A stretch of DNA of 64,000 nucleotides, from contig CASFDA010000013.1 of the NCBI GenBank assembly GCA_949293335.1, positions 310,001-374,000 on the forward strand. Direction: 5' to 3'. Positions within the stretch are counted from its first letter, which is position 1. Each line of letters opens with the position of its first letter. Source of the DNA: an uncultured Spirochaetales bacterium. Lineage in GTDB: Bacteria; Spirochaetota; Spirochaetia; Sphaerochaetales; Sphaerochaetaceae. The notes under the pieces are model-generated. The model was not told where the DNA came from, did not search any database, and saw only the letters and a program-made list of their open reading frames with translations. Made by a program: the position numbers and the translations under genes. Positions 39,667 to 47,707 of the stretch are shown piece after piece.

Positions 39667-40149
39667 ATGAGTATACTCGATTTGATACTTGCCCTCATTC
39701 TGATTTTCTCCCTGATTCTTGGCTTGATGAGGGGATTGATCAAGAGTATCAGCTGGCTTCCCGGACTGATTCTTGGTTTTCTCGCAGTCTTTTTCTTCAA
39801 TAAGGACCTTGCGCTTCTCATCGACAGGGAAAGCACACTGGGCCCGATGATTTCTTCATATGTTTCTGTCATCCTCCTCATGGTCGGTACGTACATGCTT
39901 GTAAGGATAATACTCGTCAGCATCTCAAACGCGTTCAAAGGTACGGGACTTGGCGTCATAGACAATGTTCTTGGCGCTCTTTTCTCGCTTGCCCTTGCCA
40001 TGATAGCAATCGGGCTAATCTGTTCGCTCATAGACAGCCTCCCGTTTCTGGATGGGGTGAAAGAGGCTTTTTCCTCTTCGTTCATTGTTTCAAATTTCAT
40101 CCGTCCATTCTATGCTGAGGCGATAGATACCTGGAGGCAGCTCTATTGA
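39667..40149 (+). CDS. CvpA-family membrane protein
   Basis: A 160-residue protein with four hydrophobic segments. The start SILDLILALILIFSLILGLM and RGLIKSISWLPGLILG are the CvpA/colicin V production family pattern, and GLGVIDNVLGALFSLA near 105 fits too. The exact role is not known. The stop overlaps the holB TTG start, and the gene leads an operon that ends in dinG. Confidence 0.8.
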   Translation: MSILDLILALILIFSLILGLMRGLIKSISWLPGLILGFLAVFFFNKDLALLIDRESTLGPMISSYVSVILLMVGTYMLVRIILVSISNAFKGTGLGVIDNVLGALFSLALAMIAIGLICSLIDSLPFLDGVKEAFSSSFIVSNFIRPFYAEAIDTWRQLY

Positions 40150-41279
40150 ATTCGTTTCCTGAAACGGAAAGCAGTAATGAGATATTCAGAAGCATAAGGG
40201 AAAACAAGTTTCCCCAATCGACGCTTCTTATAGCTGAACGTGACTCGTTCTCCCTTGAGATAGCTCTCTCCATTCCCTATGCCATGGTGGAGGGGTTTGA
40301 TGGGTACAGGAGGGTATATCCGGATATACTTCTTTCTCCTTTTGAGGATATGCTCCTTTCTTTGGATGCTTCTTACAAATACTACACCAAGAGCAGGAAT
40401 GACAGGGGAAAGAGATTCTTTGCAGAAAGTGTCAGGCGCATACTCCTTTCATATCATCAGGCGTTCATGAAGGATGGACATGACCAGAAGGAAAAACTTT
40501 TTGCGAAAGCAAGCGATGTGGATGAGAAACTCTCTCTCTTCATAAATGAAGAAGATGGAGATAAGGCAGAAAAACTGGCAGATGAGATATACAAAGCAGC
40601 TTCCGATAGTACTTTTGTAACCAAAGACAAGAAGAAAGCCGGACTGACGATGGAGGAGCTGAGAAGCTTTCTTGCTTACACAGGCAAGAAGAGTGGAAAG
40701 AAATTCCTCATCCTCGAGAACATTGAAGATCAGAGCGAGAGTGTGAAGAACGCACTTCTGAAGACGCTGGAGGAACCTCCTGAGGGACTGTACATAATAC
40801 TTATTTCAAAGAGCCCTGAGAGAGTGATGAAAACTATTCTTTCCCGTGTCCGCAGGTATGATATCCCGCACCCCGATGCAAGAAAACTGAATGATTTTCT
40901 CAGGAAGTTCTACTTCACGAAGAAAGATTATCAGAGCCTTTCTGAATTCTATATGGACTATTCCCTCGATGACGATGAGAAAAAGAAGCTTGAAGAGCTG
41001 TCTGTATTCTTTATCGGCGCATTGAAGAAAAATGAGATGCCTTCCTCTCGAGATATGAATGAGTACCTTTCGATCCTTACTCCCAGGATGACGAAAATCT
41101 TTCTTTCTGCTTTTTCCCTGTCAATTCGAAAAGAAGTATTATCTTTTAATATTGAAGGGTGGAAGGCAAAGAGGATCATCGATGCGTTTTCCTCTGCCCT
41201 TTTTTCATCTACCACCTATTCGACTAATATCCGGGCTGCGCTCGATACGGCCCTGAGGGAGGCTATAAAATGTCGATGA
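40146..41279 (+). CDS. holB: DNA polymerase III delta' subunit-like protein
   Basis: 377 residues from TTG 40146 (overlaps cvpA). The block FLILENIEDQSESVKNALLK, TLEEPPEGLYIILIS and TILSRVRRYDIP (about 185-240) is the delta'/DnaX sensor-1 and SRC region of clamp loaders. The usual zinc-finger cysteines and a P-loop are missing, which is normal for delta' ATP binding but less so for the zinc site. It probably helps load the sliding clamp. It overlaps the histidine kinase gene by 10 bases. Confidence 0.75.
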   Translation: MNSFPETESSNEIFRSIRENKFPQSTLLIAERDSFSLEIALSIPYAMVEGFDGYRRVYPDILLSPFEDMLLSLDASYKYYTKSRNDRGKRFFAESVRRILLSYHQAFMKDGHDQKEKLFAKASDVDEKLSLFINEEDGDKAEKLADEIYKAASDSTFVTKDKKKAGLTMEELRSFLAYTGKKSGKKFLILENIEDQSESVKNALLKTLEEPPEGLYIILISKSPERVMKTILSRVRRYDIPHPDARKLNDFLRKFYFTKKDYQSLSEFYMDYSLDDDEKKKLEELSVFFIGALKKNEMPSSRDMNEYLSILTPRMTKIFLSAFSLSIRKEVLSFNIEGWKAKRIIDAFSSALFSSTTYSTNIRAALDTALREAIKCR

Positions 41280-42430
41280 GAATCCTGAAGAAGATACTTC
41301 TCGATGATTATTGGCTTGAAAAGGATCAGATGAGGGAGTTCATCATGGGAGCTGTCAAGAACTATGACCTCCTCTATGAGCTTCTTGACAGGAGTGATGA
41401 TGCTCACCTTGTAATTGAAAGGGAGAGCGGAAAGGTCAAGATATCCAACCGTGTTCTCAGGACCATGGTCCCGATTTTCAAAGTCTCCAATCATGAAGGA
41501 AAGGAAGTCGGCGAGATTATCAAGGATAGGGATGTCGTTGCATTCATCAGCGATGTTCTTGAAGGAAAGGAAGGTTTCCACCCTAGGGATTTTTCCTATG
41601 GGGAGGGTGATATAAAGACAATAAGGGTCTCTTTTTTGCCTTTTATGGTAGATGACAAAGAATTCCTCGATGTCAGGTTTTCTGACATAACGGAAGATTT
41701 GAAGAAAGAGATACGGATGCGGAACTCGGAGGCGCTTGCGAGCATGACTACAATGGCTGCAGGCGTTGCACATGATATAAAGAACCCGCTTGCCGCGATG
41801 AAGATATATCTCGCTCTTCTCCGCAAGGCAGTAACAAGCGGGAAAAACATCGAGAAGGCATCATCCTTTATAGATATAATCGAAGATGAGACTGAGCGTC
41901 TCAATGAGATTGCTGTGGATTTCCTGTTCGCTGTCAAGCCAATGGATGTCGAGCTCAAGATGTCGAATATAAACGACACAGTTGAGGATCTCATCTCATT
42001 CATCAGCCTGGAGACAGAAGAGAAGGGAATAGATCTTCAGTTCAGGAAAGGCAATTTCCTTCCATCTATCCTCCTTGACGCAAAACTTATGAGGCGTGCT
42101 CTCCTGAACATCGTGAATAATTCGATTTCGGCCCTTTCTGGGAGGATCAGTCCGCATATCATCTTTGAAACCAAAGTGGATGGTAACTTCGTTGCTCTGA
42201 GTGTAGAGGATAATGGCTCTGGGATGAGCGAGGAGGTCAAGGAGAAGATATTCGAACCATACTTCACGACGAAGACACAGGGGGGAACGGGCCTTGGTCT
42301 TACTGCTGTTCTGAAGATCATGAATGCGCATAAGGCAGAAATTGGAATAGAGAGCAGGAAAGGAGAGGGGACGAAGTTCACCTTTTCCTTCCCGATCCCT
42401 CAGTCAGAAAGGAAGGGACTTGAAAGTTGA
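41270..42430 (+). CDS. cytosolic sensor histidine kinase (NtrB-like)
   Basis: 386 residues, no membrane segment. A PAS-like sensor occupies about 45-145 (HLVIERESGKVKISN, then FSDITED). The H-box AAGVAHDIKNPLAAMKIYL carries His168; the ATPase domain has N-box NIVNNSISAL, G1 VEDNGSGMSEEV, F-box EPYFTTK and G2 GGTGLGLTA. GGAGG lies 8 bases before the ATG. Overlap with the next gene makes the NtrC-like regulator its partner. The soluble plan recalls Hk2 of Borrelia. Confidence 0.87.
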   Translation: MSMRILKKILLDDYWLEKDQMREFIMGAVKNYDLLYELLDRSDDAHLVIERESGKVKISNRVLRTMVPIFKVSNHEGKEVGEIIKDRDVVAFISDVLEGKEGFHPRDFSYGEGDIKTIRVSFLPFMVDDKEFLDVRFSDITEDLKKEIRMRNSEALASMTTMAAGVAHDIKNPLAAMKIYLALLRKAVTSGKNIEKASSFIDIIEDETERLNEIAVDFLFAVKPMDVELKMSNINDTVEDLISFISLETEEKGIDLQFRKGNFLPSILLDAKLMRRALLNIVNNSISALSGRISPHIIFETKVDGNFVALSVEDNGSGMSEEVKEKIFEPYFTTKTQGGTGLGLTAVLKIMNAHKAEIGIESRKGEGTKFTFSFPIPQSERKGLES

Positions 42431-43791
42431 GCACGATACTTATTGCAGACGATGAAGTCAACATTCTCAGTGGCCTGAAGCTTGCATTCGAAGACGAAGG
42501 ATATTCTGTAATTACTGCCAAAGATGGACTTGATGCATGGAAGAAGGTGAACGCGCACAATGTCGATCTGGTGATCACCGATCTCAGGATGCCTGTCCTT
42601 GACGGCTATGAACTTATAAAGCGCATAAGTTCTTCTTATCCTGCTCTTCCTGTCATTGTCCTCACGGGTCATGGAACTATCGAGACTGCTGTCGAGACGA
42701 TGAGGGATGGCGCTGTAGATTTCTTTACAAAACCAGTAGATCTCGAAAAACTCATGCTTGTTGTAAAGAAGAGCATTTCCAACAGTGTCCTCAAGGAACA
42801 GAACAGAAGGCTTTCTGAAGAGATCGACAAGCTCAAGGGGGAGAAGAAATATCAGAAGATCATTGGCAAGAGTGGAAAGATAGAGCAGCTTATGGCCCTG
42901 ATCAGACAGGTTGCGCCTACAAAGGCGAGTGTCCTTATCACAGGGGAAAGCGGAACAGGAAAGGAGCTCGTTGCATCTGCCATACAGAATCTTTCCCCAC
43001 GCAAGGACAAGCCTTTTGTGAAAGTGCATTGTGCCTCTCTTTCACCGACATTGCTGGAATCGGAATTGTTCGGACATGAGAAGGGAGCCTTCACAGGGGC
43101 TACAAGCCAGAAGAAAGGAAGGTTTGAACTTGCTGATGGAGGTACGATATTTCTTGACGAGATAGGGGAAATAGATCTCACGACACAAGTGAAGATCCTT
43201 CGTGTGCTACAGGAGCGTGAGTTTGAGCGTGTAGGTGGAGAAAAGACCATAGAGGTCGATGTGCGCATAATCGCAGCGACAAACAGGAACTTAGAGGAAG
43301 AGGTCAGAAAAGGCAACTTCAGGGAGGATCTGTATTATCGTCTGAACGTGGTACATATAAACGTGCCACCCCTCAGGGAAAGGAAAGAGGACATCGAGCT
43401 GCTCGCAATCGAATTCCTCAGAGAGTTCAACGAGGAAGATGGAAAGAGCATCAGGGGATTTTCCCCGCAGGCGAGGAAGGCGATGATGTCATACTCATGG
43501 CCCGGGAACATAAGGGAACTGAAGAACTCGATAGAAAGTTCTGTCGTGCTTGCGAAAGGAAATATAATAGACGTCGATGATCTTCCTCCGGAGATAGGAG
43601 AAAAGGGTAAAGAGAGAAGTCTTGTAATCGATTTGCCGACTACACTGGAGGATGCGGAAAAGCGCGTTATCCTGGAAATGATTGCTTTCTCAGGTGGAAA
43701 CAAGAGCAAAGCAGCGGAAGCCTTACAGATTGGGCGGAAGACGCTGCACAGAAAACTCGCGGAATGGAAGATGGAAGATCAGAATGGATAA
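42427..43791 (+). CDS. sigma-54-dependent response regulator (NtrC family)
   Basis: 454 residues from TTG 42427. The receiver domain has DDE at 8-10, phospho-acceptor Asp52 (VITDLRMP), Thr80 and Lys102 (TKPVD). The AAA+ domain has Walker A GESGTGKE (173-180), the sigma-54 contact loop GAFTGA (220-225) and Walker B GGTIFLDEIGE. A Fis-type helix-turn-helix ends the protein (GGNKSKAAEALQIGRKTLHR). All parts needed to activate sigma-54 polymerase are present. The only -24/-12 promoter I found in the window lies 3 kb downstream, before a sigma factor gene. Confidence 0.93.
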   Translation: MSTILIADDEVNILSGLKLAFEDEGYSVITAKDGLDAWKKVNAHNVDLVITDLRMPVLDGYELIKRISSSYPALPVIVLTGHGTIETAVETMRDGAVDFFTKPVDLEKLMLVVKKSISNSVLKEQNRRLSEEIDKLKGEKKYQKIIGKSGKIEQLMALIRQVAPTKASVLITGESGTGKELVASAIQNLSPRKDKPFVKVHCASLSPTLLESELFGHEKGAFTGATSQKKGRFELADGGTIFLDEIGEIDLTTQVKILRVLQEREFERVGGEKTIEVDVRIIAATNRNLEEEVRKGNFREDLYYRLNVVHINVPPLRERKEDIELLAIEFLREFNEEDGKSIRGFSPQARKAMMSYSWPGNIRELKNSIESSVVLAKGNIIDVDDLPPEIGEKGKERSLVIDLPTTLEDAEKRVILEMIAFSGGNKSKAAEALQIGRKTLHRKLAEWKMEDQNG

Positions 43792-45873: not shown

Positions 45874-46137
45874 TTAGCGGATGATTGCAAGGATATCCTT
45901 GTAACTCAGGATGAGGTACTCCTCTCCGTCGTCCTTGAACTCAGTTCCGGCATATTTGTCGTGCAGGATCCTGTCTCCGACTTTTACATTGATCTCCTTG
46001 GAATCTCCGACGGCAACAACGCTTGCTGTCTGTGTCTTCTCCTGAGCAGCCTGAGGAATGTAAAGTCCTCCCTCTGTCTTCTCTTCAACCTTTTCCTTCT
46101 TGACGAGAACCCTTTCACCCAATGGAATGATTGTCAT
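45874..46137 (-). CDS. groES: co-chaperonin GroES
   Basis: 87-residue GroES, the lid of GroEL. IPLGERVLVKKEKVEEKTEG, the mobile loop region GGLYIPQAAQEK, VVAVGDSKEI and the C-terminal YLILSYKDILAII are typical. I start at ATG 46137, which has AGGAG 7 bases upstream; the nearby ATG at 46143 abuts the ribosome site. groEL is not adjacent, an arrangement seen in several spirochaetes, so the two subunits are made from separate loci. Confidence 0.93.
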   Translation of the reverse strand: MTIIPLGERVLVKKEKVEEKTEGGLYIPQAAQEKTQTASVVAVGDSKEINVKVGDRILHDKYAGTEFKDDGEEYLILSYKDILAIIR

Positions 46138-46293
46138 ATACATTCTCCTCTTATTTTCAATTTTCCACATTAATATACAAACGGGAATGCAAAACGGCAA
46201 GGAAATATGGTCTTTTTTCTCTCCTGTAACAGAATGGTAAAGACCTCTTTTCTTTTTCTGAAAGATTATTATTTTTCAGATAGGAGGAAAAAG

Positions 46294-46683
46294 ATGGACA
46301 AGTGCAAGATAAAAGAGCTGTACACTCTCGGACTTGAAGAGCTTACATCAGGAAAGATAGAAAAAGCATTCAATCTGCTTTCTTCTGCTTTCTTGTTCCG
46401 TCTTTCTGATCTTTCTCCAACTCTTGAGTTTGTACTCTATTTTCGCTATCAGTTCGCGCGTTATCTTTCGCTGAAGAACAACCATTACATCTCTTTCCCG
46501 GAAGGAGATATGGTCTCAGACATGATCAGGGACTCCTATAATGAAGTCTGTACGGAGCTCGAATCAGGGGATCTTGAATATACGGAGGACGAAAGGGTAT
46601 TTATTCTTTCCCGTTCAGGCCCTGACTTTTTGTGTCCGATTGACTCTATGACGCGTTGCAGGAAAACAAAAGAGTCAAAATGA
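46294..46683 (+). CDS. 129-residue protein of unknown function
   Basis: Starts at ATG 46294 behind AGGAGG. A helical protein: CKIKELYTLGLEELTSGKIE then AFNLLSSAFLF looks like a single tetratricopeptide-type helix pair, followed by an acidic stretch and a Cys-containing tail (FLCPIDSMTRCRKTK). No family is recognised. Its stop codon lies inside the first repeat of the region that I read as the activator site for the next gene's sigma-54 promoter. Confidence 0.55.
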   Translation: MDKCKIKELYTLGLEELTSGKIEKAFNLLSSAFLFRLSDLSPTLEFVLYFRYQFARYLSLKNNHYISFPEGDMVSDMIRDSYNEVCTELESGDLEYTEDERVFILSRSGPDFLCPIDSMTRCRKTKESK

Positions 46684-46728
46684 CCCAATATGGGAGATAT
46701 ATCCTCCACTTGGGTTAAAATGACTCAA
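46677..46728 (+). promoter_or_regulatory. candidate upstream activating site: paired AAAATGACYCAA repeats
   Basis: AAAATGACCCAA (46677-46688) and AAAATGACTCAA (46717-46728) are direct repeats exactly 40 bases apart, and TGACCCAA is also mirrored by TTGGGTTA (46710-46717). They sit 65-116 bases upstream of the -24 element, the usual place and spacing for NtrC-type activator binding. Confidence 0.5.
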
Positions 46729-46792
46729 AACAAGTTTAATCTTCACATCATGATTTATAATAATTCTTTGTAATATAAATAATTATAATATT

Positions 46793-46807
46793 TGGCACGG
46801 ATGTTGC
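46793..46807 (+). promoter_or_regulatory. sigma-54 (-24/-12) promoter of the sigma factor gene
   Basis: TGGCAC (46793-46798), five bases, TTGC (46804-46807), within TTGGCACGGATGTTGC: a full match to the RpoN consensus. The start of transcription should be near 46819, 13 bases before ATG 46832, with AGGAGG between. Confidence 0.85.
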
Positions 46808-46831
46808 TTTCTATAAAACAGGAGGCAAAAG

Positions 46832-47707
46832 ATGTCAGAGAATGTTTATACATCAAATTATATCGATCAGGATGACGAGGTGCTTTCAATCTATCTTGAA
46901 GAGATAAACGAGATCCCAATGATCTCCCATGAGGAGGAGTACGAGCTTGCCGTACGCGCCAAGAATGGAGATAGAGTTGCTTTCAATAAACTGATCAATG
47001 CCAACCTCCGTTTTGTAGTCTCTGTCGCAAAGAAGTACAGGGGACAGGGGCTTCCGCTTTCAGATCTTATCAATGAAGGGAATATCGGGCTTATCACAGC
47101 TCTCGAGAAGTTCGAACCGGAAAAGGGTTATCATTTCATTTCATATGCTGTCTGGTGGATCAGGCAGTCGATCCTCAAGGCCCTCAGCGAGAAGGGACGG
47201 CTTGTTCGTCTCCCTCTCAACAGGACGAATGAGTACATACAGATCAGCAAGGCAAAAGAGAAGCTTGCCCACTCTAAGGAGAGTGATGAAGTATCGACCA
47301 AGGAAATTGCGGAAGAGACAGGTCTTGAAGAGAGCCTTGTCAAGGAACTCCTGCAGGTGACCCAGGACACTGTGAATCTCGACAGCAAGATCAAGGGAAA
47401 GGATGAGAGCGAGACCACATTTGCGGAATTCCTGATCGATCCCAATGGAACTCCAGAAGATGAGATCGTCTCATCAAGTCTCAATGAGGAAGTCAATTCC
47501 CTCCTTTCTGTCCTCACTGACAAGGAAAGGAATATAATCTCGCTCCGCTATGGCCTTACAGGAGAAAAGCCAAAGAGCCTGAAAGAAATCGGTGACAGCT
47601 ATAACCTCACGAAAGAGAGGATCAGGCAGATCGAGAAAAGGGCGCTTGAGAAACTCCGCAAAGAGGGTACAAGCAGAGGACTTGAGTGTTATGCGAATGC
47701 CGTTTGA
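46832..47707 (+). CDS. sigma-70-family alternative sigma factor (group 2, RpoS/RpoD-like)
   Basis: 291 residues. Region 1.2 (DDEVLSIYLEEINEIPMIS), region 2 (NLRFVVSVAKKYRGQGLPLS, DLINEGNIGLI, FISYAVWWIRQSI), region 3 and region 4 (LTDKERNIISLRYGL, LKEIGDSYNLTKERIRQIEK) are complete, and a long region 1.1 is lacking, so this is not the housekeeping factor. A strong ribosome site (AGGAGG) and a perfect sigma-54 promoter precede it. By analogy with Borrelia rpoS it should be made when the NtrC-type regulator is phosphorylated. Its target promoters are unknown. Confidence 0.9.
   Translation: MSENVYTSNYIDQDDEVLSIYLEEINEIPMISHEEEYELAVRAKNGDRVAFNKLINANLRFVVSVAKKYRGQGLPLSDLINEGNIGLITALEKFEPEKGYHFISYAVWWIRQSILKALSEKGRLVRLPLNRTNEYIQISKAKEKLAHSKESDEVSTKEIAEETGLEESLVKELLQVTQDTVNLDSKIKGKDESETTFAEFLIDPNGTPEDEIVSSSLNEEVNSLLSVLTDKERNIISLRYGLTGEKPKSLKEIGDSYNLTKERIRQIEKRALEKLRKEGTSRGLECYANAV

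Follow-up and report, generated by a model that had tools for sequence, protein, structure and literature searches.

The window, by which we mean the whole 64-kb stretch of DNA analysed here from an uncultured Spirochaetales bacterium, contains what appears to be a complete sigma-54-dependent promoter in front of a gene for a sigma-70-family factor, which we call sigma A. We propose that this promoter switches on sigma A through dyads spaced at 40 bp that are read by an ortholog of Rrp2, with Hsp20 genes as a co-target, and we would put the probability of this reading at roughly 0.87. The proposal draws on sequence evidence for the promoter, the dyads and their spacing, the linkage of the genes, rpoN, the domains of the activator and the Hsp20 co-target. 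For the spirochaetes, a relay in which sigma-54 turns on another sigma factor is described from Borrelia, whose adaptation to the host it governs. In the open-access literature, a scope outside which most subscription journals fall, we found no account of the relay through sigma A (relay A) or of such a relay outside Borrelia.

The promoter of sigma A

The features around the start of the gene are as follows.

46792–46807, forward strand: sigma-54 -24/-12 promoter element TTGGCACGGATGTTGC, an exact match that occupies the same place in orthologs class-wide
46819, forward strand: predicted transcription start, placed from the promoter class with the C of TTGC counted as -12
46820–46825, forward strand: Shine-Dalgarno sequence AGGAGG, from the sequence
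46832–47707, forward strand: sigma A, a 291-residue sigma-70-family factor with regions 1.2, 2, 3 and 4 by Pfam, in a clade of its own (100/99)

All 12 positions of the -24/-12 consensus are matched by TTGGCACGGATGTTGC, with the GG at 46794–46795 and the GC at 46806–46807 separated by 10 nt, within TTGGCACGNNNNTTGC. The initial annotation had recognised a perfect sigma-54 promoter before a sigma-70-family gene, and both the consensus match and the positional conservation in relatives described below bear this out. The element itself is real and begins at 46792 rather than at 46793 as first given, and 24 nt, not 25, lie between it and the ATG of sigma A at 46832. The predicted leader of the transcript is short, at only 13 nt. 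At window positions 46750–46790, downstream of the dyads and ahead of the -24 element, we observed a conserved A/T-rich block (TAATTNNTTNTANTATAATNAATTA-like), present too at the Hsp20 promoters, which is possibly a bend or an UP-like element.

The element had also been described as the only -24/-12 match in 64 kb. This holds for the full consensus, since TTGGCACGNNNNTTGC has a single exact match within the window (46792–46807), and fails for the shorter core TGGCN7TTGC, which has four exact matches (42471, 46793, 49121 on the minus strand, and 56746). When up to two mismatches were allowed, TTGGCACGNNNNTTGC was found eight times in the window against 3.05 expected, and the shorter core with one mismatch 48 times against 38 expected. 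As these looser matches occur near chance frequency, scarcity within a single genome is weak evidence, and we dropped the counting of -24/-12 matches, whether in the window or the genome, as proof. A search for further sites, as the initial annotation had proposed, located exact TGGCACN5TTGC in three places in the whole genome: at the sigma A promoter, upstream of two Hsp20 genes, and inside a regulator gene. The match inside the regulator gene (C26) is perfect and has no dyads, and was rejected as proof of a promoter.

Identity of sigma A

The gene behind the promoter had been called a group 2 sigma factor of the sigma-70 family, and this assignment stands: its regions 1.2, 2, 3 and 4 in Pfam are RpoD-like, and a second, weaker match in the genome is a separate RpoD. 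The best-scoring curated families are proteobacterial RpoS and the cyanobacterial group 2 sigmas, which have the region 1.2–4 architecture in common with sigma A; however, sigma A falls far under the cut-offs of both (255 against 379 and 253 against 385 bits, respectively). For RpoS, NCBIfam TIGR02394, the score is 255.3 bits and the curated cut-off of 378.7 is not reached, and sigma A is below the curated cut-offs of every named equivalog among those listed, RpoS included. In the tree the sigma A clade groups with RpoD of Bacteroidota, Ignavibacteriota and Gemmatimonadota (99/97) and not with spirochaete RpoD, a hint that the gene was transferred long ago or descends from an ancient paralog.

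Conservation across the Spirochaetia

Orthologs of sigma A were found in nearly all of 100 relatives, the search of which did not find the gene in G052 or G072. Its absence there fits the dispensability for growth expected of a group 2 sigma factor. We examined the upstream DNA of 93 ortholog loci, a count that takes in two Borrelia-like genomes whose sigma belongs to another group, and observed NTGGCAYN5YTGC in 77 and the GG/GC core in 84. A strict -24/-12 site is present in 24 of 29 families, and in dinucleotide shuffles TTGGCAYN5YTGC appeared once in 9,300. Within the genus TTGGCA is invariant at all 43 loci, whereas the preceding A/T block varies; congeneric loci are not independent, and the pattern nevertheless spans families. 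One genus subclade has TTTC instead of TTGC, and a few members of the class have weak sites. This positional conservation in relatives is the strong evidence for the predicted promoter. The data suggest that a sigma-54-to-sigma relay was already present in the ancestor of the class Spirochaetia and is not a local oddity.

In G078 we observed a divergent RpoN DNA-binding domain (43 bits), and at its locus, L124, the -24 element is changed to CGGGAACAAATATTGC. The dyads are kept there, at -92 and, weaker, at -132. Co-evolution of RpoN and its promoter is possible in this genome.

An enhancer array with fixed spacing

The -24 element is preceded by inverted repeats of the form GKGTCA-NNN-TGACMC, which start at window positions 46632, 46672 and 46712 and so step by exactly 40 bp. 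They are listed without strand.

46712–46726: proximal enhancer dyad GGGTTAAAATGACTC, conserved; the next dyad is spaced from it by exactly 40 bp
46672–46686: middle enhancer dyad GAGTCAAAATGACCC, with an exact GTCANNNTGAC core; the stop codon of the upstream open reading frame lies inside it
46632–46646: distal, weaker enhancer dyad GTGTCCGATTGACTC, within the 3' end of the upstream open reading frame

In the window, 73, 113 and 153 nt separate the dyad centres from the -24 element downstream of them. Most genus members have the third, distal copy at the 40-bp spacing. Dyad pairs exactly 40 bp apart occur at 42 of 42 genus loci and, at a looser threshold, at 29 of 49 loci outside the genus, with shuffles giving approximately zero in both cases. 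The distance from the proximal dyad centre to the -24 T is either 73–75 or 83–87 nt, two classes that differ by one helical turn. Breznakiella homolactica (L175), a cultured, non-pathogenic relative with relay A, has the -24/-12 site together with weak dyads. Upstream activator sites, by which sigma-54 promoters are recognised, are present here as conserved sequence. Classical NtrC-type enhancer-dependent sigma-54 promoters are alike in having dyads 70–170 nt upstream, a GAFTGA activator and a -24/-12 element; in contrast, the system in the window has two or three dyads, a fixed 40-bp spacing kept class-wide and a sigma gene as the target.

The Hsp20 co-target

Regulon scans were made as pattern searches of genomes. 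A pattern of DNA alone, consisting of two TGACNC half-sites 26–34 nt apart, then 60–90 nt and then the promoter, gave 12 matches in 198 genomes of the class, and its reversed control gave none. Eleven of these precede a sigma A gene, and five of the eleven come from genomes new to the analysis; the twelfth precedes an Hsp20 gene. This genome likewise has a second site that combines dyads and promoter, upstream of its two Hsp20 genes. An Hsp20-like gene was seen behind a -24/-12 site in 12 genus genomes including this one, and in most of them dyads stand near -72 and -156, the Hsp20 assignment being made by Pfam for this genome's two genes and L350 and by eye for the rest. The activator is kept in G072, in which sigma A was not found, together with a dyad-bearing hsp20-like promoter. 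From these patterns the regulon of the activator appears to be sigma A and small heat-shock proteins.

Other -24/-12 sites were also observed. At L323 (G028:C33) a PspA-like gene has the site TTGGCATAATCTTTGC without dyads, which suggests that the genus also has a distinct Psp-type circuit under sigma-54. In two congeners, at L317 (G014:C127) and L318 (G028:C43), similar genes for proteins of about 327 residues (MENRYFSEAEDRAFTSLVLEYN... and a relative) begin 25 nt after a -24/-12-like site that has no dyads.

RpoN and a kinase-activator pair orthologous to Hk2-Rrp2

Upstream of sigma A the window encodes a candidate signalling pair.

42427–43791, forward strand: NtrC-type sigma-54 activator, Rrp2 ortholog, with a receiver, an AAA+ domain with GAFTGA and a Fis-type helix-turn-helix
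41270–42430, forward strand: soluble histidine kinase, Hk2-like; a Borrelia-like genome has its kinase at the same position with respect to the activator
39667–41279, forward strand: cvpA-like and holB-like genes, followed by the kinase, a gene order in common with Borrelia hk2-rrp2

The prediction of a relay had been made to depend on an rpoN gene. One is present in the genome, full length and with the RpoN box ARRTVAKYR, and 98 of the 100 relatives have one too. The genome encodes six strong enhancer-binding proteins, that is, five besides the activator at 42427. The best matches of this activator in other genomes have 51–89% identity in nearly all cases, with paralogs at 48% or less; it is also the best-conserved activator, the searches of 99 of 100 relatives reaching E 1e-70 or better, paralogs alongside. 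The two Borrelia-like genomes are G077 and G099, whose Borrelia identity we infer on grounds that include gene order. The activator and the Rrp2-type protein encoded in a Borrelia-like genome align at 52% identity, and the kinases of the two genomes are related (35% over 263 residues). The order cvpA-holB-kinase-activator is common to both. Judged by its best match, its gene neighbourhood and the order of its domains, the predicted activator at 42427–43791 is orthologous to Borrelia Rrp2.

Where contigs were long enough for linkage to be judged (87 genomes), the activator gene precedes the sigma gene within 0–15 kb and shares its strand in 59, at distances of 3.0–12 kb. In some genomes it is far from the sigma gene or on a different contig, and the two Borrelia-like genomes have these two genes in reverse order. 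A GroES-like chaperonin gene (45874–46200, minus strand) sits between activator and sigma gene in the window; its place beside a stress-type relay may be a coincidence.

In three genomes, G069, G094 and G065, the Rrp2 ortholog is the only strong activator and the dyads are kept, the second dyad being weak in G065. By this elimination, and from conservation, the predicted dyads are probably read by the Rrp2 ortholog.

A second sigma group and the Borrelia cascade

Early trees exposed a second spirochaete sigma group (L356–L385, for example L369, L372 and L380). A -24/-12 site lies upstream in 27 of its 27 readable loci, as it does at sigma A; the group differs in that no GTCA-TGAC dyads were found at its loci and in its neighbour, a flgJ-like gene that adjoins 27 of 30 second-group genes and Borrelia rpoS but none of the 88 genes of the window's group. 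With these sites of its own, no dyads and flgJ alongside, the second group would constitute a further relay, and the Spirochaetia thus appear to carry two sigma-54-to-sigma-70 relays. A second-group sigma was not found in this genome. The genome, which is 99% complete, also gave no match to flagellin (Flagellin_N), which suggests a non-motile spirochaete.

The Hk2/Rrp2-RpoN-RpoS cascade of Borrelia burgdorferi (PMC11109971, PMC3037356) is similar to the system in the window in its orthologous pair, the cvpA-holB-hk2-rrp2 order, RpoN and a -24/-12 element before a sigma-70-family gene. It differs in that its sigma factor is of a different group; the system in the window has Hsp20 as a co-target, and control by BosR is described for Borrelia only. 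Enhancer dyads are absent from the upstream regions examined in the two Borrelia-like genomes. This fits a report of enhancer-independent Rrp2, Blevins 2009 (J Bacteriol 191:2902), which by its title, as cited in PMC6719511 and PMC11109971, has Rrp2 in Borrelia acting without an enhancer.

Alternative explanations

One could argue that the 16-mer matches by chance and that an ordinary sigma-70 promoter transcribes the sigma A gene, given the near-chance frequency of looser -24/-12 matches in the window and the TATAAT-like runs in the A/T-rich block upstream of the site. However, in the genus it is TTGGCA that never changes and the A/T block that does, and conservation of the site throughout the class stands against the single occurrence in the shuffles; we consider this explanation extremely improbable. 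Sigma A could also be sigma-54 dependent with its dyads recognised by one of the other five activators, the linked pair controlling something else. The number of strong activators encoded and the incomplete linkage between activator and sigma gene speak for this, but it appears unlikely when the dyads persist in the three genomes with the Rrp2 ortholog as sole strong activator, and when that ortholog is the best conserved of the activators.

It is improbable that the system is the Borrelia RpoN-RpoS cascade itself, with sigma A as the ortholog of Borrelia RpoS. The promoter class is the same, Hk2-Rrp2 orthologs are linked in both, and the early trees were ambiguous, one with few second-group members not rejecting Borrelia RpoS with the window's group (AU test, p 0.53). 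The tree with more members instead places Borrelia RpoS within the second group (100/100) and the window's sigma group in its own clade (100/99), beside RpoD of Bacteroidota and relatives, with an AU p of 0.07 for Borrelia RpoS in the window's group; Borrelia RpoS is a long branch, so that a sequence tree by itself is not final. The profile of the second group gives Borrelia RpoS 254 bits against 198 for that of the window's group, and the flgJ neighbour is likewise a trait of the second group. On the tree, the profile scores and flgJ synteny together we discarded sigma A as the Borrelia RpoS counterpart. The Borrelia-like relay from RpoN to an alternative sigma that the initial annotation had predicted is therefore upheld in kind, through rpoN, the class-wide promoter and the Hk2-Rrp2 orthologs, and not as a counterpart of RpoS. 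As far as sequences can tell, the relays of sigma A and Borrelia RpoS have a common way of working and no sigma orthology.

A model for relay A

In the reading that we prefer, with the Rrp2 ortholog acting on sigma A through the dyads, the soluble kinase at 41270, the Hk2 ortholog, would phosphorylate the NtrC-type activator at 42427, its presumed partner. The activator would bind two or three of the GKGTCA-N3-TGACMC dyads, which at exactly 40 bp apart would lie on nearly the same helix face, loop to the sigma-54 polymerase at 46792–46807 and remodel the polymerase with its GAFTGA loop. Sigma A, once made, would redirect polymerase to a putative regulon of its own genes. The same activator would directly drive the small heat-shock (Hsp20) operon, and the signal is for this reason probably proteotoxic or general stress.

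A wider scenario, to which we give even odds, has two ancestral relays in the Spirochaetia, with relay A read by the Rrp2 ortholog via a 40-bp array common with Hsp20 genes. Sigma A and the dyads would then have disappeared from the Borreliaceae, with Rrp2 rewired to the flagellar-linked rpoS. Such rewiring after the loss would explain enhancer-free action in the Borreliaceae, and gives a testable evolutionary explanation for the odd enhancer-independent activation by Rrp2 in Borrelia. By these data the activator would be of ancient origin and present throughout the class; outside Borrelia it would recognise a defined DNA target and act on a different sigma gene and, as a co-target, on a stress-protein gene. 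The predicted binding site for so widespread an activator would offer a way into the regulation of many uncultured spirochaetes.
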